From the NCBI GenBank assembly GCA_963965975.1, contig OZ014422.1:3371155-3435154 (forward strand): a stretch of DNA of 64,000 bases, read 5' to 3'. Shown piece by piece: positions 443 through 50,453 of this stretch (position 1 is its first letter; the number at the start of each line of letters is the position of its first letter). Made by a program: the position numbers and the translations under genes. The notes beneath the pieces are model-generated. The model made no database searches, was not told the origin of the DNA, and was given only the letters and a program-made list of their open reading frames with translations. This DNA comes from Xestospongia bergquistia. Its lineage: Eukaryota > Porifera > Demospongiae > Haplosclerida > Petrosiidae.

Positions 443-1514
443 CACTACGAAAAATTATTGTTGATTTAATTATTTTTTTGAGGTTATTTTAATTGAAACT
501 GAGGTAACCACTTTCATGGTTGTAACAAAAATACCAAAAATTGGTTATTTTTGCCATTTAAATATTACTTAATTTAACCATATTAAATACAGTTGATTAT
601 ACTGTATAAAAAAGGATAATTATACTATAGAAAAAGGTTAAATGTACTATAAGTTTAAGTTAATTTTACATTTGAATAAACGTTTTAAGAAATGAATATA
701 GTTGATTTAAATATTAACTATTACCGTTATAAATAAAATTTTGCATTTTAATCTTTTCATAATTGTATAATTACAATACCCCTATTTAAAATAATATGAA
801 CCTTTATTGAAAATAACCTATTTCAACATGTTTCAATGATAGACAACATGTATAATGAGTGTTCTAGTAAACAAAAACAGTATTATTATGAAACAAATTT
901 CCTGATATCAGTTGCGATCGAGAGAAAGCTACCGCTTTTAGCTTTTTTGTAACTGCCAGTTGGTAAATTAAATACCGACTATTGAAAAAATAGACACACC
1001 TCCAACACTTCAACCATATACTCCCAGTTAAGTACATAAAAGGAGGAGAACCAGGTCATCGACATCTCAGAGAACGAATGGGACGTTGTCAAAACGACAC
1101 CTTCTACATATAAGAAAAACTGAGCACTGCCATTTTCTCTATAAAATCCAATAAAGTGAGGACCTGAATATCAACATCAGCTATATCAACATTCATCTAG
1201 AAGGATAAAATTTCAGTAAGCATTCTAAAATAATTAGAATTTACAAACTTACCTTTCGTTCGTCATAAATATACGAAATAGCATTAATCACACCTTTTTT
1301 AGGAAACAAATGGCAAAGTAGTGCTAAGGCAGTTTTAGCATTACAGTCTATATCACCTGTAAATTAAAAGTAATACATTTCAATTAATAATCACTTACTA
1401 CCTTGATATTCAGCCTCAACTCTTTTTAAAAATCCTCTAGTTTTTCCTTTTAATGAATTTCCATACACTATTATAGCAGGAACCCATTTGTTCATCCAAT
1501 TTTGGAAACATGTC

Positions 1515-4500
1515 TTAACCGATTAAACGCGAAATTCCATTAAACCGGAAATGCACGTGACCGCGAAATTAATTTCAAGAAAATGACCTTTTCTGTGTGA
1601 CCTTCAAAGAGTGACTTGTACCGAAAAAATTAGGCAGAACTGGTATAGGGAAGCTTCGTTCTGAAGAAAGATAAGGTCCAGAGGTGGATATCTACATCTT
1701 GAAAATTAGCTGTAGACACTACTACGACGGAGATATAATAGCGCGAGTAAAACACTTATCGTGTACAAAGCTGAAACAAGTGGATCGGTGAATCTGAAGC
1801 TCCATAGACTACTGAAGGCATTGCTGTGTCTTTTCAAGGACAGTAACACTCTAAAGTAACGTAGGTTTTCAAAATATAGAGTACTACTAAGTAGAATGTA
1901 TACGTTAACATTTTTTCTGTTGTAGCCATTGGGAATTTTTATTTTATTTTATAATAGGTGTTAGTAAATGTTACAATGTGATTATAGGAAACAATGCATG
2001 ATAATTAGTACACAGTGAACTGATGTATATAGTATATAGAGGTTTTATATGATTATGAGATATTGTATGAATAGATACTTTGTAAGTGAAAGGTAGATTT
2101 ATACATACATGTTACTGGTATTGTTTTGTGTGCCACATTAGGAAGCAGTCTTCAGTATCACCAGTGTGACAAAGCCAAGTATCGCACTCTCTACAATACC
2201 AGGAACTATCAACACGAGCGTGGTGAACTGTGTTATGATAAGAGCATCGACCTCTTCTCAACTTGTTGTTGTCATCTCTTATCTTCACAGGAAAATGCCG
2301 TAGAGATAGTTGACGAATAGCTCCTCCATTGCGACCACATCTTAGTCGACTACAATAGTTGCCTATCAACTCTTTTGCTAGCTGAACATGGAACTCCTTT
2401 ATGTTTTTAAATGTTGCTAGCGAGTGATAGTTTTTGCGTAAGATGTATGCATTGGTGACGGTAACATTGAAAAGAAAAAAGACAATATATTTATAGAGTT
2501 TGCATGACTTGATTTTGTAGCTGTAATAGCCACGAAGCTGATCCCCCTGTCTACTCCACCCATGTACTTGTTGTACGTTATAATATTTTGTGGACAAGGG
2601 ATTGCAGAACGAGTTGTATCGACTTGTCGTCGAAGTACAGTACCTACAGCAGATGGTTGTGTATTTGATGACATCATTGTCACAACCTTTCTATCGAGCC
2701 AAGGTGTAGCAGAGATGTTGTTTTTCTGTAGAGTCACTGAGTCTCCTCTATGAATAAGGTAAGAAATGTATTCAATACTTATCAATATAATTGTACTTGG
2801 TAGTAGGTACAATAGGCAAAGTCATATGTTCTAATACTGTAGTGTACTCTACTGTACTTTCAAGTGTAAGCTATGTTTGAAACAAACTTGAAAGACTACT
2901 TGAGCTATTTATTTGAATGCATTATACCTGTTAGTGAGTTTTAATGTCTTCAATGTAGGTGGAAATCCTATGCGATGCTTACGAACTGTTCCACATCCAT
3001 ACAATCCATCCGCCTCAAGATCTTCTAACAATTTCAGGCTTGTAAAAAAATTATCAAAAAAAATGTGGTATGATTTGTGAGTGTCTTCACTACTCTCGCT
3101 CCTAGGTTAGCCTCTCGAGTACCTTCTTTTCCAGAATAAATCTGAAACTTATGGAAATAGCCATTGTGGCTATCTCCAAGTACCCACACCTTTATGGCTC
3201 TTTTAATTGGCTTCATTGGCATATATTGTTTCAGAGATGACCTACCCTGAAATTTAATCATCGCCTCATCTACAGCAAGCTCACAGTGTGGATTGTATAA
3301 GTCAGAAAATCTCTGAAAAAGGTGATTGATTACTGGGCTAACTTTGCCCAAACGATCGTGACCTGGTTGCCCTCGAGGTACAAGTGTACTGTTATTAACG
3401 AAATGGAGATATCTAGAGATATCTCGAAAACGGTCACGTGAGATGTGATCTGCTATTGGTAAGTAATGGAACACAGGATCTTTTTTCCAATAGTCTTCCA
3501 ATGATGGTAAGGGAACCATCCCCATCAAAAGCATAAAACCAAAATAAGCCTTTATTTCCTCCACTGTAATTTTGGTCCATGATTCGTATTTAATATCTCC
3601 CATTACTTCTTTAGCGTATAAATTGCTTTGTTCCACTATGTTGTCTATAAAAGGAGTTGTAAAAAACAACTCAAAAACCTCTAATGGAGAGTTTGGGATA
3701 GTGACTGTAGGACCAACAGAAGAGACAAATGGTTTTATGCTTACTGGTTGTAAGTTAGATGACCAAGTAGATGTAGATGTAGATGTAGAATTGTTAGACG
3801 ATGGAAGAGTAACACTAGCAGTAGATGATGAATCAATAGATGATAAACATGTAGGAGATGATGTTTGGACTGTTGTTGAATGAATAGTAGGTGGTAGTGA
3901 TGATGTCAATGATAAAAACGGTTGTTGGATTGTTGATAAAATTGACGATAAAGATGGTTGGTTAGGAGTTGATGTTTGGACTATAGTTGATTGAATGTTA
4001 GGGGGTAGTAACGACTTAGATGTTTGGATAGTAGACGGTAATGTTACAGTGGATGACACATACGATGGAAAATTATTTACTTGTGGTGATGTATGGTTGT
4101 AGACTGAGGTAGATGGATGTGAGATAGAAGTAAGATATTCATTTCCTAAAAAATAAGAAAGACATGTTGCTATACTGGTATATACTAGATGTTTATATCA
4201 CTTTTTTATGTGAATGTATATTTACCTTCTTCATCATCCTCGTCAATATCTGACAAATCACTAAATTCGTCATCACTTCCCAACATTACAGGTTCTTGTG
4301 GATCATCTAGGTCGAGAAAGTAGTCTTCTCCATCAAGCTCTCGAATTACATCATCTGTTGTCAAAATTCTTGGTCTTTTTGCCATGTTTATATTACTACA
4401 TTGTAGATTGATGTTTATATTATAAGATTTTTAATTTATGTTGTGTTTTTATACAGTATTCAAACTTATTAATTATCACATAGTAAATATTCACCTGAAT

Positions 4501-7546: not shown

Positions 7547-10340
7547 TAATACCACACATGCACTCCCTTCCTCTGTAGTTAGACTACCTAAACAGGTTAT
7601 CCCACAGAATTATTTAGAAGATGAGGAGGCCTTACGTCATATTGATGATTTGTGTTCATTAATTTCTAGTAGTGAAGGAGTGGACAGTGTTTATGCTAAA
7701 TTTTGTTCTTTTATTTCTAACTCATTACACTTAGATAGTTTTCCCAATCATAAAAGTAAAAAGGAAAATCAAAAAAAATTCACAAACTATGGTGGGATGG
7801 TGATCTTCATGTTATGAGGAAAGAAGTTAGACTTGCCCTTAAAGCATGGTTAAAAAACAAATCAGTAGTAAGCATTAAGCAATCTTATTTGACTCTCCAA
7901 CAAACTTTGACAAACTAGTTAAATGTAAAAAAGACTGTTTCTTTCAACCCAAAAACAAGAACTATTAGACTTACAAAAGCATAATCTTAGATCATTTGGG
8001 AAGAATGTCAAAAAACTATCTATCAGTTATTTTAACCAGAAATCAACCATCCCCTGGGAAGTCATTATACAGGGTAATATTTGTACCAACAAGGATACAA
8101 TACTACAAGTTTGGAAAGACACTTACTACAAACTATATAATTGCTCCATTGTACAAGACAGATATATAGATTATTACTTTACATACATAAATATTAAAAG
8201 TAAATGCCTTGATACATCTATACTCAATGATGACCTTTTGTTTGATGAAATCCATATGGCAATTTCTCTAGCACCTACTAAGAAATCTTGTGGACCTGAT
8301 AACATATATGCAGATTACTTTCAACATCCTAATCTTATTCCTTTTATTACCCAGCTTTTCAGAACATGTTTTTTAACTAGTTGTTTCCCTAATTTATGGC
8401 ATAAAGCAAATATATTACCAGTCCCATAATCAGGCAATTTTACAGACCCTTTAAATTGTAGGGGAATTGCCCTCCAATGTAATTTTCTTAAAGCATATAC
8501 AAGTATATTAAATAAACGATTAACTTACTGGCTAGAAGACAATGAAATACATGTACAAGAACAACTAGGATTTAGAAGTGGTCATAACTGTCTTGAGCAT
8601 GCTCTCACTGTTTACTTAATGGCACAAAATAGAAAGATTATCAATAAAGATACATTTATATGTTTTATTGATTTAAAGAAGGCATTTGATAGTGTAGATA
8701 GGAATTTACTTTGGTATAAGTTGTTATGTTATGGAATTAATGGTAATTTGTTATAAAATCTTAAAGCATTATATTCTAGAGTTAATTATTGTTTAGAAAT
8801 AAATGGTACTGGCACTGAGTACTTTACAGTAAATAGGGGTGACAAACAGGGTTGCCTCCTATTGCCAGTACTTTTTAATTTATATATTAATGACCTAGTT
8901 CCCTGTGTTAAAAATTTAAATTTAGGAGTAAATACAGAAGAGGACATAGTTATGTGTATCCTGTTGTATGCTGATGATATTGCACTGTTTGCCAACAATG
9001 AAAATGATTTACAACACCTTATTTGTAGAGTAGCTACATGGTGTAACAAGAATCGTTTAGCAATGAACGTCAATAAAACTAAAGTACTGCATATTAGACC
9101 AAAAAGAAGAGCCAGATCATCTTTTCCCTTTGCATGTAATAGTATCATCATAGACTATTGTAATGAATATAAATACTTAGGAATATGGTTTAATGAATAT
9201 TTGGACTGTAAACAAACTTTAGAACATACTGCAAGATCAGCCAGGAAAGCTCTGGCAGGAGTTTGTGTATGTTCTAAAGAATTTGGTGGCTTTCTTTATC
9301 AGACATATACATTGTTATATAAATCATTAGTAACTCCAATATTAGACTATAGTGCTTGTATATGGGGCTACCAAGAACATCCCCAGTTAACTATTGTACA
9401 AAACAATGCAATGTGCTTCTTCTTAGGATGTAATAAGTCCATGCCTCTAGTTGCTTTAACAGGAGAAATTGGATGGCTTCCCACCCATTATAGACAAATG
9501 AATATCATTCTTAAGCTCTTTATACAATTAGAAAGTAATACATGTAACCCTTACTACAGAGTCTATTCAAACAATCTACTGACTTAGGTAATTTAGGAAA
9601 ACACACTTGGTCTTGGCATTGCATGAAATTAATATGTAAAATAAGAGAATATAATAAAGGTATGAACCCAATACCTTCAGAACTACATAATATAATACAC
9701 ACTATAGCCAATGAAGGCTGGCAGTCTCAACTAAATAAACTTTAGATCCTTCATCTGAGACAGGAAGTAAGTTAGTAATATATAGACAACTACAACAGGA
9801 GCCATTGCCACCTAGTTATGTGCTTGTCAACATGACCGCAAAGAGATGTAGGACTATGGTGGCCATACGTGGAGGTTGTTTGCCCCTAGCAGTTGAGAGG
9901 GGGTGTTTTCATGTACCTAAGATACCTCTAAAGGATAGACTATGTATTCTTTGCAACACCAATTCAATGGAATATGTACCTCATTTTGTCCTGTTCTGTC
10001 CAAAGTACAATAACATACGACTCAAACTTTACAACACAATCACTTCCAAAGTACCATCCTTTTACTCACTTCCCCACACTTTATCTAACGAATTCAGCCA
10101 TATATCATCGTTGTATTTTAATGAAATGTTCATTTTAAGATCAAATTTAGTTTTGTAATTATTAATTTTGTTTTTCTTCCATGTTTTGTATAGTCACTGT
10201 AAGTTTATTGTTTAATCCAAAATTTTATTTATATCATATCACTTTTATTATGTAACTAACTTGTCACTCATAAGCCATTGGTGGCTGGGCAGTCTTCTGT
10301 GTGTGACATTAATAATAATAATAATAAATAATAAATAAAT
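7547..10340 (+). mobile_element. LINE fragment 2: reverse transcriptase, C-terminal knuckle and TAA tail
   Basis: This continues the LINE cut at 442. A linker region (7549-8230, with a frameshift near 7790 at WWDGDLH) leads to the reverse transcriptase. Visible RT blocks are KKSCGPDNI (RT1), NCRGIAL (RT2), FICFIDLKKAFDSVDR (RT A), GDKQGCLL (RT B) and ILLYADDIALFA (RT C, YADD catalytic pair, about 8960-8995). In-frame stops at about 8427 and 8754 and further breaks kill the ORF. A later block at 9805-10158 has a CILC...H....C knuckle near the C-terminus. The 3' end is a TAA microsatellite (10311-10340), as in several TAA-tailed animal LINEs. The clade is not assigned. Confidence 0.85.
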
Positions 10341-15760: not shown

Positions 15761-17662
15761 GATGATGAAATTGATGTAGTAGCTGATAATATTGTTGTGG
15801 TTGATGAGACTGAAAAAGAACAATTGAATGGTAAGATAAAAATTACTTTGCAATATATTGTATTATCATTATAAAACTTACCTGTAATAGTAAGTGGTAG
15901 TGGAAGTGTACGTGGAGGTTGTGATAGGCATGGCAGGGGACGTGGAGGTTGTGGTAGAGGACGAGGTGGTTGTTACAGTGGTGTTAGGGGACGAGGTGGT
16001 TGTAGTAGTAACGGGAAAGGAGGTGATGGAGCTGAACCGTGGATACCAGTGGATGACCTCCAAGTTGACACTCCACCAACAGCTATCCCATTCATGGAAC
16101 AGCCAGGACCAAAAATTTCACTATCGGCAGACTCTTCCCCACTGGATTTCTTTTCTCTTTTCTTTAATGACGTAATAATTCAGATGCTTGTTGATGGTAC
16201 AAATGAGTATGCTGGTGATGTTATTGCTGAGAAGGAGAGAGGTGGAAAATTAACTCCAAAATCCAGATGGGTGAAGTGGAGACCAGTCACCACAGAAGAG
16301 ATGAAGGCGGTCCTGGCGGTTATTATAAACATGGGGGTAATGCACTGCCCGGAACGAGCTAGCTATTGGAAGACATCATGGGAGAGTTATATACCGTTCT
16401 TCCATGATGTTCTTCCACGTAACAGGTTTGAAGAGATCTTCTGGATGTTACATCTACGAGAAGACACAACATCAACAAGACTACGACGAATTGACAAAGT
16501 TAAGCCTCTTCTCGATCAACTGCTTACAACATTTCAGAGTGTTTTCTACCCTGGACGTGAGATTTCAGTGGATGAAACAATGGTTGGTTTCCGCCAATAT
16601 TGTCCACTGAAACCGATTGAATGGGGCCTCAAGTCCTTTTTTCTGATAGTGCTACAGGGTTTATTCTCAATATAATCCCATACACTGGAGGTGAGACAAA
16701 GGACATATATCTGTCAAATTGTAACCCTGAACTCCCAAGCCTCACCCAGATAGTGTTGGCTCTTGTTGAAAATTATCTTCACAAGGGTCATCATATTAAT
16801 GCTGACCGGCTCTATTCTAGTGTCCCTTTGGTCGATGAGCTAGAGAGGTGTAACACTGGTTACACTGGGACATTAGTTAGGACTCAGCAACAGCTTCCAA
16901 GTGTGGTAAGAGGCAAAAGTTTCAAATTGAACAAGGGAGAAACTAAGGCGTGGAGAGATGGAAAGAAATTGGTGTTGGCATGGAGGGACAAAGGGAAGCC
17001 AACAGTAATGATCTCCACTGTCTATCAGGGGTCAATGACGACAGTTCGAGGTCGCCGTGGAGAAACCAGGAAGAAACCTCTGGTTGTTGACAAGTACAAC
17101 CAGAGCATGGGTGGAGTTGATATAGCTGATCAGTATGGATGTTACTATTCATTTGGAAGGAGGAGTATCAAGTGGTGGAGGAAGCTCATGTTCTGGTTGC
17201 TGGAGGTCAGCCTTGTGAATTCTTATATCCTCTATAAGGCAACTTCCTCAAATCATTTGTCACATTCTGACTATCAGCGTAAGCTGGTAGTTGGATTGTG
17301 TGAGGGGTTGCCTGTAGGAGATGTAAGACGACAGCTCATGTGGCCTACCAGGTTGGAGGAGAGGTTCGAGGGACGTCATTATATTGAACGAGGACAGTCA
17401 AGACGTAGGTGTATTGTATGCAACAATTCTAAAAGAGGACAAAGACATGACACTATCTCTTTTTTTGTAAAACATGCACACACAATCCACCGTTACACCC
17501 TGACATTTGTTTTGAACGTTACCACGAACTTGTTAATTATCATTTAGCTACATATATAAACTATATAAATATTACTTACTTGTCACTGTTTGTACTGTGT
17601 TGTATTGCATTGTATAACTATTGTCTTGCAATTGTGGTTTGTAATTATGGTACATCTTACTA
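15761..17662 (+). pseudogene. piggyBac transposase 2 with RGG-box N-terminus, frameshifted
   Basis: An acidic exon (about 15761-15831) splices in frame (AAT G|TA AGT) to a long exon from about 15891. That exon opens with Gly/Arg/Cys repeats (RGRGGC, three to four copies), an RGG-box-like region. The DDE_Tnp_1_7 core follows: PLDFFSLFFNDVIIQMLVDGTN, the first Asp in ISVDETMVGFR (about 16565-16595), the second in HHINADRLYSSVPL (about 16790-16825) and the third in YNQSMGGVDIADQ (about 17095-17135). The C-terminal CIVC, FCKTC and CFERYH cysteine motif is read only after a frame change at a T7 run (about 17459-17466). Another frame change is at a T6 run (about 16637-16642), and about eight residues after VGFR seem missing compared with relatives. 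It differs strongly from piggyBac 1, so it is a separate lineage. Element ends were not found with confidence. Confidence 0.82.
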
Positions 17663-22691: not shown

Positions 22692-22761
<70 letters not shown>

Positions 22762-22798
22762 GTCTCTCTGTCTCTCTGTCTCTCTGTCTCTCTGTCTC

Positions 22799-22834
<36 letters not shown>
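22672..22834. repeat. CA then CT microsatellite
   Basis: About 11 CA units run directly into a CT tract of about 140 bp that includes several tctctgtctctc variants. On the plus strand the CT part forms a long polypyrimidine tract ending ttttcag, i.e. a canonical splice acceptor just before the 2A-like exon. Confidence 0.95.
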
Positions 22835-22838
<4 letters not shown>

Positions 22839-35140: not shown

Positions 35141-36945
35141 TTGAGTCTTTAGATTTGTTTGGTATTCTTTTTAAAGATATAATTGATAAGCAAGTGTGTC
35201 TTACCTCAACCATATCATGATATTGTAATCATATTTTCCTTTCTAGAGCATCATCTAGGGGCATTGTTAGAGATTGAGCACCATAATATACATAAGCTAA
35301 TCAGCTAGAAATATAGCTTTATTGCCATTCATTCTCTTGCTCTATTCTTTTGTCTACTCTTTACAAAAGTTATTTAGTTCTGATAAAGTAAATAAAATAT
35401 ATAAGATAGAAGAGAACTGGATACCTGTGATCAATCAGCAAGGTAGTTTGTGTACAATTATTGTGTTGTCTTCACCATCTGACTCTGCACTCATTAGTGT
35501 AATGTGATGTCTTGCCACCTTCCCTCTCCCTCTCATACACATGCTTAGTGCATCCTTCAAACATTGATAAGACTTATGTAATGTCTTTTCGAAACTTTCT
35601 TAATTGTTCTGATTTCTCCTCTTTGCCAGGTAAACTTTCATTATAATCTTGTCTTATAATCTCATATAATCTTTTACAAGCTTCCATTTATAATACAAAA
35701 ATATCATTTAATTCAATGATTCCATTAGTTTTAGTAAATTTGTCAGAAACATTCTCCTTTAGCTCTGGTATTAATTTCTCCTGACATTGGTATTCTCTTT
35801 GCTAATGCAGCTGCAGTCATATATAATAGACTACGTTCATAAACAATTAATCTTACCTTTCTTCAAGATTAAACTGATGCTCAAAGCTGTCATGTAACTT
35901 CCTTGCTTTTTCCTATAAAAATGCACGATCTATATTATTTGTGTGCATTACTTGATAAAACACTCACTGATAGAATTCAATCCTAACTTTCTTCCTTCTC
36001 AGATAATATAGTATCTTCATGGATTATCTCCTTAAATACTTCTTCAAGTACTGTCTTAAAATATCCTGATTATTTATAAATCTCTCTACGGCCTCCTATG
36101 CTGAATAACATCATACAATATTTCAATTATGCCAGGTTGTGGAGGTAAACTCTGTAACAAGTGTCGTGATCATATCAGATACATTATAACAATGATAGGG
36201 TCACTGCCATCATGAAGAGCAAGTCTTACACTAGATAGAAGTGATGAGGTAGATGGAGAAGCGATGGTTGAAAAGTCATTAGAAGGTAACCAAGCAACAT
36301 TGGTGTTTTTATCGCCAAGGCATAGCTCTCGATTTCTGTTCCAACTGTAAGGTGTAGATTGACTTTAGTGTATCTAGTGTAACATATCAATAGGAGAGAA
36401 AAACATAGGTCCTGTTTCGACGTTGTTATTGATGTCATCATGGGCTTTGTCTCTTTGGAGTTAATGTCGAACCATCACATCGGCTGTAAAAGTTTTTACG
36501 AGAGATATTCAAGCTTGAAGGTGTATTTCTACTGTCAGCATTATCAAAAGTCCCGCTTCTCTTTAATTATAATGAGAAGGTGGAGCAAATAACTAATTAC
36601 AATAAGATTGAATTTTAATATCTTCAACTTTACGTTACCCTGCCTTCCAAATACATTAAAGGCAATGTATTATTGAGTATGGTTTGGAACTGGATGGAGC
36701 TTCAGATACTGGGACCAATGCTACAATGAGTTATAGAATCACAGACTAATAGTTGTCTCTCTAGTCATTTCTAAGGTTTTTTTAACAATATTATAGTCAT
36801 ATTATTCATGTATATAAACTGTTGGATTTTTGTTTTATATAATTAATTAAAATGCACAATGTGAATATTTACAACGTTAATACAATGGTATAAAGACAGT
36901 GATATTATGGATGAAATATTTAAGATAATTTTACAATCATGACAA
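35141..36945. other. Interval with decayed coding-like stretches
   Basis: Two minus-strand stretches look coding by composition. One, at about 36180-36330, includes GDKNTNVAWLPSNDFSTIAS; the other, at about 35990-36110, includes EDILRQYLKKYL. Neither could be extended across splice sites or recognised. The rest is AT-rich without signal. Confidence 0.25.
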
Positions 36946-37342
36946 AAGGAATTGTAATATATACATTGTATAAACAACAATTGTATTAATAAATGTATAT
37001 ATTACAACAATGTTACAATTGTTGTAATACATTGTATAAACATGACAAAAGGAATTGTAATATATACATTGTATAAACAACAATTGTATTAATAAAATTA
37101 ATGTATATATTACAACAATGTTACAATTGTTGTAATACATTGTATACATTGTATAAAAGAGAGTGGTATTAATAATGTATATATTACAACAATGTTACAA
37201 TTGTTGTAATATATACATTGTATAAACAACAATTGTATTAATAATGTATATTCTACAACAATGTTACAATTGTTGTAATATATACATTGTATATATTGTA
37301 TTAATAACGTATATATTACAACAATGTTACAATTGTTGTACA
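36946..37342. repeat. Palindromic minisatellite, about five units
   Basis: Units of about 75-100 bp, each containing acaacaatgttacaattgtt (itself a palindrome) and its neighbour atatacattgtataaacaac. Units alternate so that neighbouring copies also pair in inverse orientation. Long YNNCN-type reading frames on the minus strand are by-products of the repeat. Confidence 0.9.
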
Positions 37343-37664
37343 AAATATGTAATATATCATGTATATATATGACACCTAAAAAATACATGGTAAAAAATAC
37401 ATGGTACATTTTTGTTGGTATATTTACAATGGTAATTACACAAAAATCCGATATATATATTTACAACATAAAAACAATGAATGTATTCAATATATTTTTC
37501 CTGTGGTTACAGACATGTTATATTTGTTACAATGACTTGGTTAGTTGATCCAGTACTGGATGGAGGTTTATGGGACCAGATGCAGACCAATGTGCCTAGT
37601 TGTCACTTCAAATATAGTGTCCTGACAGCTTGACAGATTTAATCTTGCATAAGAACTATATGAT
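37343..37664. other. Short interval before the candidate pogo element
   Basis: AT-rich, continuing the composition of the satellite for about 150 bp; no gene supported. Confidence 0.4.
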
Positions 37665-38329
37665 TAGAGTAAATTACACAAGAACGGACGTATCACTTTC
37701 GGCCGCATCTAGCAAGATAAACTACCAAGAGAACTGGCATTTCTAACTTACTGTTGTAAACTACGACCTGATTAATTAATATACCAAGTGCTTTGAAAGT
37801 TTTAGGAAGCTTCTGTGAATAGCGACAAGGTTTTGAAAAAAATTTTCGGAGGCAGCAGTAAGCGGACAAGTATGATGTAAAATCGTTCAATTGCCAAAAT
37901 TCCTTCAATAACCAAGCAAAGCGAGAAGGCTACGGCCGTTGTTATCAAGTAACAATGGAACTACAACAGTATAATCAAACTTTTTAAATCTGCTAACACA
38001 TCGTTATTTTTCAGAGGAAATTTGCTAAGTAGGTGGGGCTATGATTATTCGACCACACTTGCACGTGTCAATAGAAGTCAGATAAGACTACTAAGCGTCA
38101 TCATCACAGATATTCTGAAAGGTACGATAAGATTAGATACTCAATAGATTTATTTGTGGCATGTCACATAGTCTATAATGCTAATACTACTGTATTATAG
38201 TGACTTTAGTAATTGGTTTAAGTATAATTGTACTGATGTATGATTCTCACCTTGACGTCTCAAATTGTTGCCTGAGCTTGAGTGACAATTAAAATTGACA
38301 TTTTTTGCCAAACACCTATTTGGATGTTC

Positions 38330-38961
38330 ATTGTCTCTAGTGTTGTTTTAGTTAACTATAAGTAATACTAAAATATTTTTAGTGGAGAGTAAAAATTTTA
38401 GTTAACTATAACGAAAACTGTAACTAATACTTTTTTCAAATGTTACTATAACTAATACTTTTTTCAAATGTTACTATAACTAAACTAAAATTAAAACTTT
38501 CCTTTGAACTATAACTAATACTATATTAAATAACCTCAATTTTATTAGTTATTAACCACATAGAATGTGTAAAGCATTTAACATAATTATCATGTTAGGT
38601 AGTGCATACCTGAGTTGTTTGTGGGTTTAACCTTCCATGCATGAGTGATTTTCTAGTTATTATAGTTAAGCTTAACTAGAAAGCATGCTTACAGCTAGTA
38701 TAGCAGCTGGTCCTGGCAGGCCAAGAAAAAGTGGAGTATGTATCTTCCTGAAGAAAACAAAAGTGTTTGCTTGTTAAATATGACTATAACTAATGCTATA
38801 ACTAAATTAAATTTCACATTTATACTATAACTAATACTACTAAATTAAAATTAGTATTAATACTATAACTAATACTATAACTAAAAATAAATTTTACCTT
38901 TTGCTATAACTAAACTAAAACTAAAACACCTTATGTCTACTAAAACAACACTAATTGTCTC
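38330..38961. mobile_element. hAT deletion derivative with 8-bp duplication
   Basis: The ends TAGTGTTGTTTTAGT (38338-38352) and ACTAAAACAACACTA (38939-38953) are perfect inverted repeats and fit the hAT start consensus. They are flanked by a perfect 8-bp duplication ATTGTCTC (38330-38337 and 38954-38961). The 616-bp body is filled at both sides with ctataactaatact subterminal motifs. The centre keeps a short coding relic AGPGRPRKSGVCIFLKK (about 38705-38755), which resembles the start of the BED finger of hAT transposases. It therefore looks like an internally deleted copy of a longer element. Confidence 0.9.
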
Positions 38962-39999
38962 CATAAGTATAAAACATGGCATAAGACACCTTGGAGATTT
39001 TCCTATCTCTCTTACATCCATATTCAAGATTTTCATGCACATACCTTCAAAAGAAACATTTTCCATAATAAAATAATTAACTATGACATTGACAATGTTC
39101 CCATTACTTTAAAGGAAAACTAGAATAGCCATCTGATAGAGTTGAGGCTAATTAACTTACATATTATTGATGTCTGCTTTCTTATTTGAGATATATATAC
39201 CCGATTGAAGTGCTAAAGTTATTGGGAGTGTTCTCAAGTATGGAAAAACAAACTGGAGAGCTTTATCAGACTTTTAGTTGTGAAGAAAGCATAATTTTTA
39301 TGTTAAGGTCTTTTCACTTTTTGTTGCCATTAGAACCAAAAGTGCAATAGCAAGTTACAGCTTTCATATTAATAGCCTAGGGCTTTCCCCATATGACTTT
39401 TTAGTAATATTTTAGCCCAAAAAAGGTCTTTGTTGTGATGGTGACCAGCACTGACAAGATTACAGCAGGATAACACCATACACTGCCAAATTTTTAAGGA
39501 AGTATATTTTTGACAAATAGCTTCTTTGGGAGCATTTGCAAGTGGAAATTTTCAAGAATTTCCTATTGCTCTCATCATAAAATTGTACAATTTATAAGTT
39601 GCAAAATTCACAAATATTCTTCAAAAATTTTGCAGTGAATGATGGTTTAGCTTATAATAGTTCTATATCTAAATCTAAGGCCAAATTATACAAGCATAGG
39701 GACTAGCATATATTATGTCATTGTCATTTGTGGTGTCATTCTATTTGTAAATCCTTGGCAAACCCAATGAGATCTACAAGTGTACATTACTAATTTAAAA
39801 ACAAAGTGGATGAACCCAGTCCTTAATGCACTAGTGTTGTAATAGCCTTTTGTTAAATAATTTTTGTCTACTGCTGCTACACTTAGATTATTACAATCAT
39901 TTATGTTTAGATCAGTCTTCAAATGTTTGATCTGGGCAACCAAGTACATATAGAGGTAAATTCTATAGTGTTACTTATTCTGCATCAACCGATATTATC
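38962..39999. other. Non-coding part of the candidate pogo element
   Basis: No supported gene. AT-rich sequence upstream of the degenerate repeat exons at about 40010. Confidence 0.4.
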
Positions 40000-40004
40000 G
40001 CAAT

Positions 40005-40175
40005 AATAACTCAAACACATTCTCTATCTGAAAAGGTATTAAGTCTCCAATAGGTCAGTTTCCAATTGTATTTTCCTTTGATGTTGTTATGCACCTAGTG
40101 TCTCACTTTAACTCAAGTACTCTCTTTCAAACACATTCTCAATATCTCAAGACAGCTAGTAACAAATCTCTGATA
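40005..40175 (+). repeat. Two degenerate copies of the mini-exon repeat, upstream of the HTH exon
   Basis: At 40010-40062 (ctcaaacacattctctatct ... aagtctccaatag|gtcag) and 40112-40172 (ctcaagtactctctttcaaa ... ctgatag|gtagg) there are eroded versions of the 115-bp repeat that forms the main array at 42.06-43.36 kb. They lie before the ATG of the HTH-containing exon. They could be the tail of an older tandem copy of the same gene. Confidence 0.6.
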
Positions 40176-40240
40176 GGTAGGTTGTGTATGTTATTCATCT
40201 ATCATTGACATACTTATCTGTAGTCTTTGCGTTCCATCAA

Positions 40241-43200
40241 ATGGCAAGTAAATCACTTCCTCTTAGTGGGCGTGTACTCTATTCATCCAAGTTCACACAT
40301 GACATTCCACAATCTTGTTCTGCTCGACCTCTAAAATATAAAACTTGGACTTCTGAGAACTTAGAATGGGCATGTCAAGCAGTTGTGAGTGGATTGTCAT
40401 TGAGACAGGCAGCAGAAGAGTATCAAATCCCTAAATCTACTATTCAAGATCATGTTTCGGGAAAAGTTTTAAGTGGTAGCAAGAGTGGTCAAAAATATCT
40501 AACAGATGAAGAAGAAGAAGAGCTGGTAACATTTTTATTGGAAACCGCAAAAATAGGATTTCCACGTACAAGGAAGGAAGTGATATCGATAGTACAAGCT
40601 ACAGTTGGTAGGAAAGGGAGGAATGTTACAGTTTCTAGTTGGTGGGAGGGATTCAGGAAACGAGATTCAGAACTTTCTCTCCGAATTACTGAGTAAATTG
40701 CTAACAATCGTGCTTCAGCCTGCACCCCAGACGTCTTGAGTAATTATTTCGATATTTTAGAGCAAACAATTCAAGAAAACAACCTTTTGTCAAAGGTGAA
40801 CCTTTTGTCACAAGATTCACCTTTTCAAAACTATTTAGTGAGGCATGGGCATGTGCAATGACGATGAAAAATATTCAAGCTGAATTCAAATACACAGGAA
40901 TCTACCCCTTTGAACAGGGATGCTATTGTTCCATCAAGAAAAGATGCCACAATCACACTTGCACAGCACACATGACTGAAATTTAGACCACTATATAGCC
41001 CTGCACGACGATACAGGCCTCCCATTACTCAAAAAGCTGTATTCACAGAAGAGGAAGAATCAAGATTTCAAAAAAAGTTTCAAGAAGGTTATGATATTAC
41101 TTCTGATGATCGTTATAACCAATGGAAAAAAAAGCATCAATCAACTAACAATGGTAGTGAATTCGTTGATCAAGAGCTTGATTTGAGTTCCCAATTCTCC
41201 CACAATGACACAGTTGCTAATGATGCCACCACTTGTATGTTTTATCAATACCTATATTACCCACCAGATACTAGATACCCATATTACCCACAAGACACTC
41301 TTCCATATTTTCCATTTTTTGTGCCAGCATTTGATCCTCGTTTTCAAAGTTGTCCTTCCACTGCAAGTGCTGAAAGTAATACGTATCCTTTTGTCTGTCA
41401 TTCTCCTGAACAACCTTCACAATCTGCAGTTCTTCAAAAATCATCCATTTTTTCAAAGATTTTAGAAGAAGAAAGATCATTACCCTTTTGTAAGCTTCCA
41501 GTTATACCACAAAAGAAGTCTGGAAAAGTCTTAACAAGTGCAGAGAATCGTATAGCAATTGAAGAAAAAGAGAAAATGAAATTAGAAGAAATGAGAAAGA
41601 AGGAAGAAAAAAAAGAAAAAAGAAGTAAGTATATACATAGATACTGCAACTTACACATTCTTACTTTGATTAGATCAAGCTAGGATAGCTCAGTTAAAAA
41701 AAAGTGAGAATGACATACCCAAATTTTGATTCCTCAATATTGTTATAGAAAGTTCTTGCTCTAAAAAGTCCTGTACTGGTTCAGCCCCTATTAGCAGTTC
41801 TCAATCTACATCAAACAATCCCACTGAAGGTAGGTATTTGCATAATTTCATCTTAAGTTTAGCACCTTTTCAGCCAGTATCAATGATGGTACTGTTATAT
41901 TATACTGTGGTTATAGGTTGCTCATTGTTTACAATGTCTGAAGAGCTAGAGAACAGTTTAAATGAAGGTATAGTGTTAATTTATTGAATTAGTTTATATA
42001 CCACATCAGGTGCTGCAGGTATCTCCAAGTCTCCAATAGGTTAGTTTGTCTGTTATCCTCTATATTATTCATTGGTATAATAATCTAGCCTCTAGTATTC
42101 AATCTCGGACACATTCTCGGTCTCAAACGTCAACCACTGTCAAGTCTCCAATAGGTCAGTTTGTCTGTTATCTTTTCTATTATTCATTGTTATAATAATC
42201 TAGCCTCTAGTACTAAGTTAGGGACATGTTCTCAATCTCAAAAGGCAACCAATGTCAAGTCTCCTATAGGTTAGTTTGTCTGTTATCTTTTATATTAATC
42301 ATTGTTATAATAATCTAGCCTCTAGTACTCAATCTTGGACACATTCTTGGTCTCAAAAGGCAACCTCTATCAAGTCTCCAATACTTCAGTTTGTCTGTTA
42401 TCTTTTTTGTTATTCATTGTTATAATAATCTAGGCTCTAGTACTCAATCTCAGACACGTTCTCGATCTCAAAAGACAATCTCTGTCAAGTCTCCTAGAGG
42501 TCAGTTTGTCTATTTCTTTTATATTATTCATTGTTATAATAATCTAGCCTCTAGTACTATGTTAGGGACATGTTCTCAATCTCAAAAGGCAACCACTGTT
42601 GAGTCTCCAATAAGTCAGTTTGTCTGTTATCTTTTATATTATTTGTTGTTATAATAATCTAGTCTATGGTACTCAGTCTCAGACACGTTCTCAGTCTCAA
42701 AAGGCAACCTCTGTCAAGTCTCCAATAGGTCAGTTTGTCTGTTTTCTTCTATATTATTCATTGTTATAATCTAGCCTCTGGTACTCAGTCTCGGACACAT
42801 TCTAATAGTCTAGCCTCTGGTACTCAGTCTCGGACACATTCTCATTCTCAAAAGACAATCACTGTCAAGTCTCAAATAGGTCAGTTTGTCTGTTATTATT
42901 TGTATTATTTTTGGTATAATAATTTAGCCTCCAGAACTATATTACGGACACGTTGTGGGTCTCAAAAGGCAACCAATGTCAAGTCTCCTATAGGTCAGTT
43001 TGTCTGTTATCTTCTATATTATTTATTGTTATTATAATCTAGCCTCTAGTACTCAATCTCAGACACATTCTCGGTCTCAAAAGACAAGCACTGTCAAATC
43101 TCCTATAGGTCAGTTTGTCTATTTCTTTTATATTATTCACTGTTATAATAATATAGCCTCTGGCACTCAGTCTTGGAAACTTTCTCAGTCTCAAAAGGCA

Positions 43201-43594
43201 ACCTCTGTCAAGTCTTCAATAGGTCAGTTTAACTGTTATCTTTTATATTATTTATAGTTATGATAATCTAGCCCCTAGTACTCAGTCTCTGACACATTCT
43301 CAGTTTCAGACAAGTTCTGAATTTCAAGAGACAACCATTGTTGAGTCTCCAATAGGTATGTATAACAAATATATTGCTCACTTGCAATAATATTTAATGT
43401 ATTTAATATTTGATGTATAAAAGTACTGCATTTGCAGGCAGGGGGAGTTTGGCAGAATGATTTATTGTGACAATGCAAATTGCTCAATTGGCTGGTGGCA
43501 TTTTGAATGTGCTAATCTTAAGAGAAAACCAAGAGGGACTTGGTATTGTTCTCTATGTGATAATGTATCTAAACTAGATGAACCAAATTCTTGA
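40241..43594 (+). pseudogene. pogo/Tigger-like transposase gene: psq and CENP-B HTH, core deleted, Ser-rich exon array, PHD finger
   Basis: The ATG at 40241 (MASKSLPLSG) opens an exon with a psq-type HTH (WTSENLEWACQAVVSGLSLR, then QAAEEYQIPKSTIQDHVSGK) and a CENP-B/Tc5-type HTH (DEEEEELVTFLLETAKIGFP, then VTVSSWWEGFRKRDSELSLR), as in pogo transposases. A stop follows at 40694, then NNRASACTPDVLSNYFDILE to ENNLL. The DDE core that should follow is missing. The C-terminal part resumes at about 40865 (FKYTGIYPF, then FTEEEESRFQKKFQEGYDIT and KVLTSAENRIAIEEKEKMKL), with a Lys/Glu-rich end. Small phase-1 exons follow at about 41752-41828, 41918-41969 and 42009-42043, then the mini-exon array, and finally a PHD finger exon (about 43424-43594): CICRQGEFGRMIYCDNANC, HFEC and WYCSLC, ending at TGA 43592. 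Transposase activity is not possible without the core; the HTH plus PHD parts could still be a chromatin-binding gene. Confidence 0.7.
42056..43360 (+). repeat. Array of 11 tandem mini-exons with their introns, period about 115 bp
   Basis: Each unit holds an intron end (taataatctag), an exon and a donor (atag|gtcagt). Exons: 42089-42154, 42204-42269, 42319-42384, 42434-42499, 42548-42613, 42663-42728, 42775-42879, 42928-42993, 43043-43108, 43157-43222 and 43272-43355. Nine are 66 nt, one is 105 nt (an internal 39-nt duplication) and one is 84 nt: all multiples of three. All start and end in phase 1, so any can be skipped or added without frame change. The consensus peptide is SSTQSRTHSRSQKATTVKSP. 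The third unit has lost its donor (atac|ttcagt). Introns are only about 49 nt. Confidence 0.9.
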
Positions 43595-44309
43595 ATGTCA
43601 TTTAATGAAACTTTTAATTGACCACCTAAAAAACTGAGTACATGTTACCATATATGCTTGCATAATGTAACATCTTGTCAGTTGTCATTGAACTTTTTAA
43701 CAGCCTTTACTTTATTATAATATACATTGCCTACCTATATGTGTTAGTGAATAATCATGGCCACACCTATTCAGCTGATTTCCTGAACAACTATTTGTTT
43801 TTAGATAATAAAGTTTTAATTGTATGACTTTTATAGTTCACTCATTACTTGATAAAAATAGCCATAGCTTATGAGTGTAGACAATATATTTAGATTATGA
43901 GACTATTTTAAATAGATCAATCAATAATAATAATGGATAAAACAAACATTACCTTTACGAGAAGGAGACTTATTAGTAATCAGGTATTATTCAGAATTTG
44001 AAAATTAGAAAAATATAATTTCATTATGAATAGAGTGCAGTTACAGATAGTGAAACACAATAAGTTCTGAACCAATAACTCAGTAATCATTTAAAAGCAA
44101 TCACATCTATTAAATGCACAAATAAATGCCCAGAAAAGCACCTTGCAAGCGTGGACGATTTTATCAACCACACCTACTCAGCTAATTTTTGTCGAGAAAC
44201 TCTCATCAGTTAACAGAAAATAGAACTTTAAGTATACTGTTGTAGCTCAGTCAGTACATGATAGCTAAGACCATAGTTCTCTTGCTCAGCTTTGTTCTTC
44301 AAGGAGTTT
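43595..44309. other. 3' flank of the PHD exon inside the candidate element
   Basis: AT-rich, no gene supported. The weaker part of the right inverted end begins at about 44310. Confidence 0.4.
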
Positions 44310-44541
44310 GAGGAACTGGATGAATTTACATGATACTCGTCCGCGCACCCATGCTTCCGATTTTTTTTTGGAAAAGACTGTCGCTGCTCAGAGGAGCTTT
44401 CTGAATCTTTTATAATCCCTTAAATGTGTTTTGATATCAGTGAAATTCATTTCAGTATTTTAGAAATGCCAATTCTCTTGGTAGTTTATCCTGCTAGATG
44501 CGGCCGAAAGTGATATGTCCGTTCTTGTGTAATTTACTCTA

Positions 44542-47120: not shown

Positions 47121-47332
47121 TGCCTGTTCACGGAAGAGTCGAGTGTTTTGATCCAGCAACCGACGATTGGTCTACTTATGTTGAGAGGTTAGAACATTAC
47201 TTTATCGCAAATGACTTAACAACGGAAGCCAAGCGTCGATCTACCCTGTTGACAGTAGCTGGTCCAGAGGTATATTCGTTAGCTTGTAACCTGGTAGCAC
47301 CAAAACTGAGGTTCTCACTATGTACCCAGTGA
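47121..47332 (+). pseudogene. gag remnant of the gypsy element
   Basis: From the ATG at 47121 the frame reads MPVHGRVECFDPATDDWSTY and VERLEHYFIANDLTTEAKRR, the start of a gypsy-type Gag capsid region. It ends at 47332 after CNLVAPK, where the sequence jumps straight to protease-region sequence. The rest of capsid and the zinc knuckles are absent, consistent with an internal deletion. Confidence 0.75.
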
Positions 47333-50300
47333 AAACGACAACTGTGAAGCCAATTCGGGTGTCAGTTGTGATTAATGGTCGAAACTTGGACATGGAACTC
47401 GACACTGGTGCGTCTGTATCACTTATAAGTGAGTCAACATACTTCAAGTTGTGGAATTCAAATAGCCGACCAACACTCAAGCCATCAAAAGTTCGTTTAA
47501 GGACATATACAGGAAGTATGGTAGAAGTTGTTGGTGTACTAAATGTTCAAGCTAGTTACGAGGGTCAAAACAAAGTGGTGCAACTACATGTTGTAAAGGG
47601 GGATGGACCTAGTTTATTAGTCAGAGACTGACTCCAGTCGATCAAATTGAATTGGGCTCAAATAAATCTATTATCAAACCCCTCCCCTGCTTTAGACAAT
47701 TTACTGGACAAGCATGCTGCACTATTCCAGGAAGAACTAGGTTTACTTAAAGATGTCACTGTCAAGTTACATGTTCATCCAGATAGTGTCCCCAAATTCC
47801 ACAAGCCTCGTCCGGTGCCATTTGCGCTTAGAGAAGGAGTTGAGAAAGAGTTGGAAAGACTACAGAGTCTTGGAGTAATCAAGCCAGTTGCTACATCAGA
47901 CTGGGCAGCACCAATAGTCCCTGTGGTTAAAAGAGATCATTCAATTAGAGTGTGTGGAGATTACAAGCTGACTATTAATCAAGTTAGTAACACAGAAACT
48001 TACCCTCTACCTCGTATAGAGGAAATATTTGCATCACTTTCAGGTGGTAAAACTTTTACAAAGTTGGATTTGCAGAATGCGTACCAACAGCTGTTGTTAG
48101 ATGAGAAGAGTCAAGAACTGGTGACAATAAACACACACAAGGGGTTGTTCCAATATACACGGCTACCCTTCGGGATAGCTTCTGCACCAGCAATTTTCCA
48201 AAGGACTATGGAAACAGTGTTACAAGGCCTTCCAGGTGTATGTGTATACTTGGACGACATTCTAGTCACAGGGGCATCAGAAAGGGAGCACTTGGAGCAC
48301 TTGAAATTAGTGTTGCAGAAATTAGAGGATGTTGGTTTGCGGCTAAAGAGAAGTAAATGTCAGTTTATGGTGTCTCACGTAGAGTACCTTGGCCATCGTA
48401 TTGACCAAGAAGGATTACATCCAACAGCTGGAAAGATAGAAGCAATCCAGAAAGCTCCAGCTCCAACTAACAAGACTCAGCTCAAGGCATTTCTTGGTTT
48501 GGTAAATTATTATTGCAAATTTTTACCTCATTTGTCTTCTAGGTTGTCACCACTCTATTTGTTGCTTAAGAAGAATAGTCGGTGGTGTTGGACTAAAGCC
48601 CAAGAGAAGGCATTTCAAGCTGTCAAGTCAGGATTGTCTTCAGATCTGTTGTTAGTTCATTTTGACCCAAACAAGAAGATTATTTTGACCTGTGATGCCT
48701 CACCATATGGAGTGGGGGCGGTCCTATCTCATCTCATGAATGATGGCACAGAACGCCCAATTTCTTTTGTCTCTAGGGCATTGTCACAGGCAGAGCGTAA
48801 CTATGCTCATATAGAGAAGGAAGGGTTAGCCATCATATTTGGTGTTCGACGTTTTCACTCGTATCTGTTTGGGAGACATTTCACCATTCGCTCTGACCAT
48901 CAACCGCTAAGGTATCTCTTTGGAGAGAATAAAGCAGTGCCAACACTAGCATCTGCTCGTATTCAACGCTGGGCACTGATTTTGAGTTCATATAGTTACA
49001 CCGTGTCATACAAACCGGGTAGTCAAATACCTCAGGCAGATGCACTGAGTAGGTTACCACTAGATGTCCCAACACCCTCCACAGTTAAAGCACAAGAAGA
49101 GGAAGTATTTTTGTTTGCAGAACACCAAGGTCCAATGGTAGTCACTAGTAAACAAGTCAAGTATTTCACAGCTCGTGATCCGGTCTTATCAGCAGTGGTT
49201 AGGTTTACTCTCCAAGGTTGGCCTACCAAAGTGGACAATCAAGGTTTACAGCCATATTGGTGTAGACGTCTAGAACTGACTGTGAGTGATAATTGTTTAT
49301 TGTGGGGCTCAAGGGTTGTTATACCTCCACAAATTCGAGATTCAGTGTTAAAAGAGCTTCATGATACGCATATTGGTATATCTGGTGGCCTTCACTTAAT
49401 AAAGATACTTAATAAAGATATTGAAACAATGGTCAGGACTTGCATACCTTGTCAAAGTTTGCTCAATGCACCTGCTGCTGTCCCACTACACCCATGGGAG
49501 TGGCCACAACGTCCTTGGTGCAGGTTACATTTGGACTATGCGGGACCATTCATGGGGAAGATGTTTTTAGTTGTTGTGGACACCCACTCAAAGTGGCTAG
49601 AAGTCAAGACAGTACCTGCAGCAACATCAAAAGCCACCATAGTATGTCTTCAGTCAATATTTGCCACACATGGTCTTCCAGAGAGAGTGGTAACGGATAA
49701 TGGTAGCGTGTTCACTATGAGGAGTTTAAGGAATTTCTAGAAGCAAATGGTATTGCTCATTCTACTAGCTCCCCTTACCATCCAGCCTCTAATGGGTTGG
49801 CAGAGAGGGCAGTCCAGAGTTTTAAGCAGTCTATGAGGAAGTTTACCAGTGGATCCACAGAGTCCAAGTTGTCACGGTTCTTATTCACTTACCGCCTCAC
49901 TCCTCATGCTACCACGTCACAGTCTCCAGCTGAGTTGTTACTTAAACGTCGCCCACGGTCCAGATTAGATATCCTGGTTCCAAGTGTTGAGCAAGTGGTT
50001 GAACGACGTCAGGACAATCAGAAGAAAAGTCATGATGTTCATAGTGCTACTCGTGAGTTTGCTATAGGTGACTCAGTTTTTATTAAGGACTTCCGTCCTG
50101 GCAGTAAACATTGGCTGCCTGGAAAGATAGTAGAATTGTTGGGTCCGGTGTCAGCTCGAGTCAAGTTGTTGAATGGAGAATTTCATAGACGTCATTTTGA
50201 TCATCTACGAAAGTGTCAAGTACCAGAACAAGACTATTCACCAGTAACGTCTGTTGATTGTAATACTGAAGATTGGACATCTAGTGTTCCTATACCAATA

Positions 50301-50453
50301 CCAGTTGATTCACAGTCTGTGGACTTAGGTGGTACCTCTACACTCACTGGCCCACCTACATCAAATGATCCGGCAACACCCAGTGGTGCGACAGTTCGTC
50401 GTTCTACACGTCACCGTACAGCACCCAATAGATGGGACCCAAGTTTCCAGTAA
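47320..50453 (+). pseudogene. gypsy pol: protease, reverse transcriptase, RNase H, integrase, with a stop and a frameshift
   Basis: Protease: MELDTGASVSLIS with the catalytic DTGA (about 47390-47430). A TGA at 47629 separates it from the RT frame (47647-49740), where relatives have a Trp codon. RT: FTKLDLQNAYQQL, LPFGIASAPAIFQ and VYLDDILVTG (catalytic DD). RNase H: ILTCDASPYGVGAVL, then RPISFVSRALSQAERNYAHI and RSDHQPL. Integrase: IPCQS, the first catalytic Asp in LHLDYAGPF and the second in VTDNGSVFT (about 49690-49720). A frame change at about 49717 leads into the rest (to 50453), with HPASNGLAERAV (catalytic Glu region) and a C-terminal GDSVFIKDF ... HFDHLRKC module. The HHCC finger before CIPCQS looks shortened. 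Confidence 0.9.

Follow-up and report, generated by a model that had tools for sequence, protein, structure and literature searches.

Runs of short, phase-symmetric exons that encode flexible stretches of protein are familiar from titin (PEVK) and elastin, and tandem repeated exons of 81 bases were reportedly described in Schistosoma by Davis in 1988. The micro-exon genes of Schistosoma are presented in one account as rich in short exons, most with a length divisible by three, which serve protein variation; their products are secreted parasite proteins, their introns measure 0.1–5 kb and their exons are mostly of 15 bp (PMC10526429). Among mobile elements, the pogo/Tigger transposons are described as having a TA target duplication, terminal inverted repeats, HTH and DDE_1 domains with a DDxD triad and lengths of 1.20–5.20 kb, and as occurring in many animal phyla, with Tigger reported from Porifera among others (PMC7386202, PMC9219625); the words “PHD” and “intron” are absent from the available text of both surveys. 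In RAG2, a PHD finger that follows a flexible hinge is reported to steer and restrain a transposase-derived enzyme via H3K4me3 (PMC11844651, PMC8355894).

Here we compare with these systems a tandem array of mini-exons in a window of the Xestospongia bergquistia genome (i.e., the whole 64,000-nucleotide stretch of DNA that was analysed), which a first-pass annotation had read as allowing one gene to give Ser-rich linkers of many lengths.

A transposon copy encloses the array

The array lies within a 6,873-bp element copy (37667–44539, + strand) that has TA on either side, imperfect terminal inverted repeats (left, 37667–38063, + strand; right, 44144–44539, − strand) and relatives elsewhere in the genome. 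Among the matches listed in a search of the genome (146,460,797 bases in 21 contigs; loci read there carry numbers such as L015), with the best candidates scored, matching pieces elsewhere numbered at least 69 for exon 1, at least 65 for the array, at least 45 for the PHD exon and at least 51 for the flanks. The genome copies of this element (family 1) are bounded by common ends. In the loci read, TA adjoins 12 of the 12 left ends and 16 of the 19 right ends found, the exceptions being L015 and L018, which read TC, and L025, which is a weak match. Grouping by comparable flanks placed 21 loci and the window copy in 14 groups, several loci being comparable at one end only, so that the number of groups should not be read as an exact tally of insertions.

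The features found, namely a TA target-site duplication, terminal inverted repeats, HTH and DDE_1 domains and a DDxD triad, are those of pogo/Tigger elements. Judged by them, the array sits in a pogo/Tigger-type DNA transposon (HTH_psq and DDE_1) and not in an ordinary host gene. The length of 6.87 kb is outside the reported 1.2–5.2 kb, a range that is descriptive (PMC7386202) and not a criterion of membership.

Exon 1 carries the transposase domains. In L015 it is open over 666 codons, with Pfam matches to HTH_psq (2.1e-9) and DDE_1 (9.3e-22) and a catalytic triad, picked by motif, of D206, D313 and D349 (i.e., DD35D). In the window copy (40224–41624, + strand; borders read by eye), HTH_psq alone remains (4.6e-10). 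Compared with other copies, about 520 bp of the DDE core are absent between 40796 and 40806, the very stretch that carries all three catalytic Asp in L015, and a stop codon lies at 40694–40696. Because the catalytic core is deleted, exon 1 contains a stop, the acceptor of the PHD exon reads TAT and one mini-exon has lost its donor, the window copy is dead. L015 is also damaged, since its exon 3 contains a stop and its PHD exon has lost 1 nt, and among the family-1 copies examined none could be shown to be intact throughout. Upstream of exon 1, two degraded unit-like stretches precede the HTH exon in the window (both + strand), one from 40010 to about 40053/40061 that ends in a CCAATAG|GTCAGT donor, the other from 40112 to about 40176/40189, followed by a possible 47-nt intron to 40223; a copy from a second family, L037, likewise has a 54-nt unit upstream of its exon 1.

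The window holds several other repeats and mobile elements. We observed piggyBac-type transposase frames (DDE_Tnp_1_7) at 3034–4197 (− strand) and 15875–17547 (+ strand), a reverse transcriptase frame (RVT_1), perhaps LINE-like, at 8757–9587 (+ strand), and retroelement pol-like frames with reverse transcriptase, RNase H and integrase at 47290–50453 (+ strand; Pfam on 47632–49740). TRF also reported a CT dinucleotide repeat of 71 copies at 22694–22835 and an AT-rich tandem repeat with periods of 69–143 at 36938–37365, which adjoins the left end of the transposon. Within another family-1 copy, L029, an 826-aa frame (1470–3947, oriented) perhaps belongs to a further inserted mobile element.

Eleven mini-exons lead to a PHD exon

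The first-pass annotation had described eleven exon-plus-intron units of about 115 bp, and both approaches used here recovered them: TRF gave a period of 115 nt over 42026–42803 and of 114 nt over 42803–43308, while splice-site segmentation yielded eleven mini-exons from 42089 to 43355 (+ strand). Nine of these measure 66 nt, specifically mini-exons 1 to 6 (42089–42154, 42204–42269, 42319–42384, 42434–42499, 42548–42613 and 42663–42728) and 8 to 10 (42928–42993, 43043–43108 and 43157–43222). Mini-exon 7 (42775–42879) measures 105 nt and contains the 39-nt in-frame duplication noticed earlier, which proved real and is present in other copies too; mini-exon 11 (43272–43355; start by segmentation, end read by eye) measures 84 nt. 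As had been claimed, all eleven have lengths that are multiples of three and are open, with phase 1 at both ends, and their introns are short (46–49 nt). The loss of a donor from one unit also holds (unit 3 reads TT instead of GT), but since the copy is dead we attribute it to decay. Three small exons upstream of the array, exon 2 (41749–41829, 81 nt), exon 3 (41917–41967, 51 nt) and exon 4 (42019–42039, 21 nt), all on the + strand and read by eye, are likewise multiples of three in phase 1.

Downstream of the array, an open frame at 43421–43594 (+ strand) encodes an ING-type PHD finger. Its acceptor is TAG, joining the array to the PHD exon in frame, in 18 of the 22 family-1 copies that were aligned; it is mutated to TAT in the window copy and is also lost in L026, L032 and L033. 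The family-1 PHD resembles ING proteins such as ING1 and ING4 (E ~1e-16), zinc-ligand pattern included, with a Pfam score of 21.1, below the gathering cut-off of 24. Its Tyr, Met and Trp align with those of ING1 and ING4, residues which we take to be the H3K4me3 reader cage of ING PHDs; being of the ING type, the finger is possibly an H3K4me3 reader. The units are thus cassette-like and frame-keeping, placed between a DNA-binding region (HTH_psq) and a PHD finger, much as first described; the gene to which they belong, however, is the transposase gene of a dead transposon copy.

The same layout recurs in five related families

When the genome was searched at the protein level, the relatives listed had identities of 66–68%, 55% and 47–51%, and the transposases of the five further families described here are about 50–69% identical. 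We read the downstream parts of family 2 (L037, L039 and part of L041), family 3 (L038), family 4 (L040 and L042), family 5 (L044) and family 6 (L043), and in all five a tandem array follows exon 1 and precedes a PHD-like exon. The units differ between families: 11 units with exons of 54 or 60 nt and introns of 49 nt in family 2; 17 units with exons of 60, 84 and once 81 nt and introns of 40 or 42 nt in family 3; a two-exon unit, with exons of 87–99 and 39–51 nt and introns of about 52–55 nt, in family 4; 10 units with exons of 60–69 nt and introns of 50 nt in family 5; and 4 units with exons of 54 and 36 nt and introns of 42 nt in family 6. When unit sequences were aligned, families 1 and 2 matched (z 5.6), and the other pairs compared gave z 1.1–3.0, scores that are inflated by the splice ends common to all.

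Exons in these families were located by splice-end patterns, with 30–130 nt permitted and no length imposed. Taking one copy from each of the five families and leaving out family 1, we found that 51 of 51 exons were multiples of three (11/11 in L037, 17/17 in L038, 9/9 in L040, 10/10 in L044 and 4/4 in L043) and that 49 of 51 were open in the gene frame (11, 17, 9, 9 and 3, respectively). The second family-2 copy, L039, agreed (11/11), whereas the second family-4 copy, L042, was partly discordant, with one 41-nt exon and one stop among 7 exons. The PHD-like ends matched PF00628 in families 2 (7.5e-6), 3 (5.8e-4) and 4 (5.3e-6). In the family-6 copy L043 (oriented +), we also noted a second, ING-like PHD frame (2104–2289) downstream of the first PHD-like exon, and a fourfold in-frame repeat of 30 nt (1738–1857) in the last exon before the PHD.

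Arrays change length by whole units

For 15 copies of family 2, a young family, the interval that separates the end of exon 1 from the last unit, subtracted by hand, was 1600 nt in five copies, 1703 in one, 1497 in three, 1491 in four, 1382 in one and 1067 in one. These values differ by combinations of 103 and 109 nt, which are the lengths of the two kinds of unit, and they therefore correspond to 11, 12, 10, 10, 9 and 6 units, respectively. Within family 1, splice-site segmentation detected from at most 3 unit acceptors (L034) through 6 (L027) and 16 (L015) to 49 (L035). Copies that share flanks also differ: L015 and L018, whose 3′ flanks are 99.2% identical, have 16 and 8 unit acceptors, and L026, L032 and L033 have 15, 12 and 12 (one far-off spurious acceptor each excluded from the last two), although assembly error within the arrays could also produce differences between copies of one insertion. 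The family-2 steps and the counts in L015 and L018 bear out the earlier suggestion that unit number varies by exon-plus-intron blocks.

Pooling the family-1 arrays other than L035 and L036, we found that 187 of 202 raw exons were multiples of three, at least five of the raw rows lying outside arrays (three of 79 nt, one of 109 nt and one in L034). Of these 187 exons, 14 contained a stop in the gene frame, compared with 63 and 140 in the other two frames. The unit types of family 1 are mosaics, with a common start and end and different interiors.

Two loci depart from this pattern. L035 has 48 exons and an exon 1 with two stops, and a 1-nt insertion has been amplified in 20 of its 48 units (types I and K); arrays therefore also expand without regard to frame. 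L036 (C9:5416900–5424300) is an array standing alone, with no exon-1 or PHD match nearby among the matches listed, and appears to persist as a satellite. Of its 45 exons, 34 are multiples of three (8 of these 34 with a stop), 35 have a GT and 37 an AG, and some of the frame-likeness is therefore inherited from ancestry.

Frame is kept while the peptide is free

Exon 1 is under purifying selection, with differences of 0.221, 0.174 and 0.452 at the three codon positions when families 1 and 2 are compared. The first-pass annotation had seen in the array strong evidence for selection on frame, and had named the pattern of substitutions among units as a check. Applied to 100 distinct 66-nt family-1 exons, this check showed no constraint on the peptide: codon positions differ by 0.181, 0.215 and 0.145, and pN/pS is 1.24 (codon bootstrap 0.77–2.31). 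In a separate comparison by exon-defined unit type, pN/pS was 0.90 for pairs of one type taken from different copies and 1.26 for pairs of unlike types. Purifying selection on the mini-exon peptide was thus not found; nor do we claim diversifying selection, given that the pooled codon bootstrap spans 1. By the annotation's own yardstick the window alone does not amount to strong evidence for selection, and stronger evidence that the frame is kept comes from the other families: across families, frame, phase and splice ends are kept, while the peptide is free. Ser and Thr make up 0.48 of the mini-exon peptides in family 1, 0.47 in family 2 and 0.20–0.35 in the other families, and the net charge per unit is 0 to +4.

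We also compared divergence in exons and introns, a comparison that is biased when types are defined by exons, and in which intron divergence is underestimated since units are detected through their intron ends. It was therefore repeated for family 1, once using types defined by introns and once over all pairs of 91 units, the latter giving 0.079 for introns and 0.167 for exons. With exon-defined types, introns also diverged less in family 3 (0.030 vs. 0.067), but the order was reversed in family 2 (0.039 vs. 0.027) and there was little difference in family 5.

Discussion

The gene layout of this clade, i.e., a large exon with HTH_psq and DDE_1, a few small exons, an array of phase-1 exons in multiples of three and a last, PHD-like exon, is the same in six families, which suggests that an unusual design is being kept. 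We think it likely that in this clade an elastic linker, made by splicing, connects the transposase with a PHD finger that reads chromatin. The element with its ends, its many copies, the frame running through array and PHD exon, the length changes by whole units and the six-family layout can all be read directly from the DNA. If the predicted splicing holds, mini-exons would enter the transposase mRNA and encode a flexible linker, whose length would differ between copies and perhaps between isoforms. Such a linker could let the PHD finger grip a nucleosome while the transposase grips DNA, and that grip may steer or restrain insertion. Units would be gained and lost through unequal exchange or slippage, and if only phase-1 units in multiples of three leave the transposase alive, frame and splice sites would persist while the peptide drifts.

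A broader proposal is that of a clade-wide splicing accordion, in which mini-exon sequence is renewed while frame, phase and place are selected, so that one transposase gene gives either PHD-tethered enzymes that differ in reach or a transcript dense with introns and thereby able to escape host silencing; we advance it only tentatively and consider it rather unlikely to hold in full.

Much of the evidence for an elastic linker is explained as well by a neutral ratchet, in which a repeat grows and shrinks by itself, units that are not phase-1 multiples of three kill the transposase and are lost, and neither length nor isoforms have a function. We take this possibility seriously while leaning against it. 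It agrees with the lack of peptide conservation among units, with unequal unit numbers among copies of one insertion, with the array that ballooned in the decayed L035 and with the stand-alone array on C9. Set against it is the presence of an array in six of six families read, with unit sequences that differ and, in every case, immediately upstream of a PHD-like exon. The array was never emptied in these families, which is therefore the weak point of a neutral account, since loss of a repeat would sometimes be expected.

It may alternatively be the introns that are kept, either because a transcript resembling that of a host gene evades silencing or because slowed splicing limits the transposase. 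Introns are reported to counteract HUSH, a silencer of long, intron-poor transcripts (PMC8770142), and both the near-constant intron lengths, beside exons that need only their frame, and the lower divergence of introns in families 1 and 3 would agree with such a role. However, exon 1 in these families is itself an intronless stretch of about 1.9 kb, HUSH is a system known from vertebrates whereas the host is a sponge, and families 2 and 5 do not repeat a divergence pattern that is in any case inflated by underestimated intron divergence. We regard this idea as speculative and improbable.

The splicing itself is predicted from sequence and one array stands alone on C9, which would also suit a non-coding satellite within a single long intron or the 3′ portion of the element. 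This is very unlikely in view of the 51 of 51 exons in multiples of three and 49 of 51 open in five other families, the in-frame junction of array and PHD exon, and the exon length classes, which differ by multiples of three where intron lengths do not (40/42 and 48/49 nt). Domestication of a transposon into a host gene that uses the array for regulated isoforms might be suspected from a multi-exon structure with a chromatin-reading domain, but the inverted repeats, TA on both sides, relatives at many sites and the broken catalytic core and PHD acceptor exclude it for the window copy and make it the least credible account of all.

Transposases are usually compact. If a clade indeed keeps both an expandable set of mini-exons and a finger that reads histones, a single element would tie the repeat dynamics of exons to splicing and to the choice of target sites. 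With array lengths that span 6 to about 48 units and families of many copies, these elements form a natural series for the effects of linker length or intron number on a transposase, and are a rare case in which gain and loss of tandem exons can be watched in young copies.

Comparison with known systems

The element family resembles pogo/Tigger transposons in its TA, terminal inverted repeats, HTH and DDE_1 domains and DD35D triad (L015), and differs from them in that the window element reaches 6.9 kb despite an internal deletion. By title and start of abstract, we recognised no transposon of such design in the limited open-access literature searched; pogo-type transposons themselves are known, and it is the transposase gene, with its mini-exon array and PHD finger, that is unusual. 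An abundance of short exons whose lengths are mostly divisible by three is a feature shared with the Schistosoma micro-exon genes, which, however, are not mobile elements and lack near-identical exon-plus-intron units of about 100 nt, whereas the array in the window has introns of 46–49 nt. Titin and elastin are host structural genes, not mobile elements. RAG2 offers, by analogy, a precedent for how a PHD behind a flexible hinge can steer or restrain a transposase-like enzyme, but it is a partner subunit in another superfamily, with an acidic hinge and no repeated exons, whereas the PHD of the sponge transposon sits on the predicted transposase itself, behind a linker that is mostly mildly basic.
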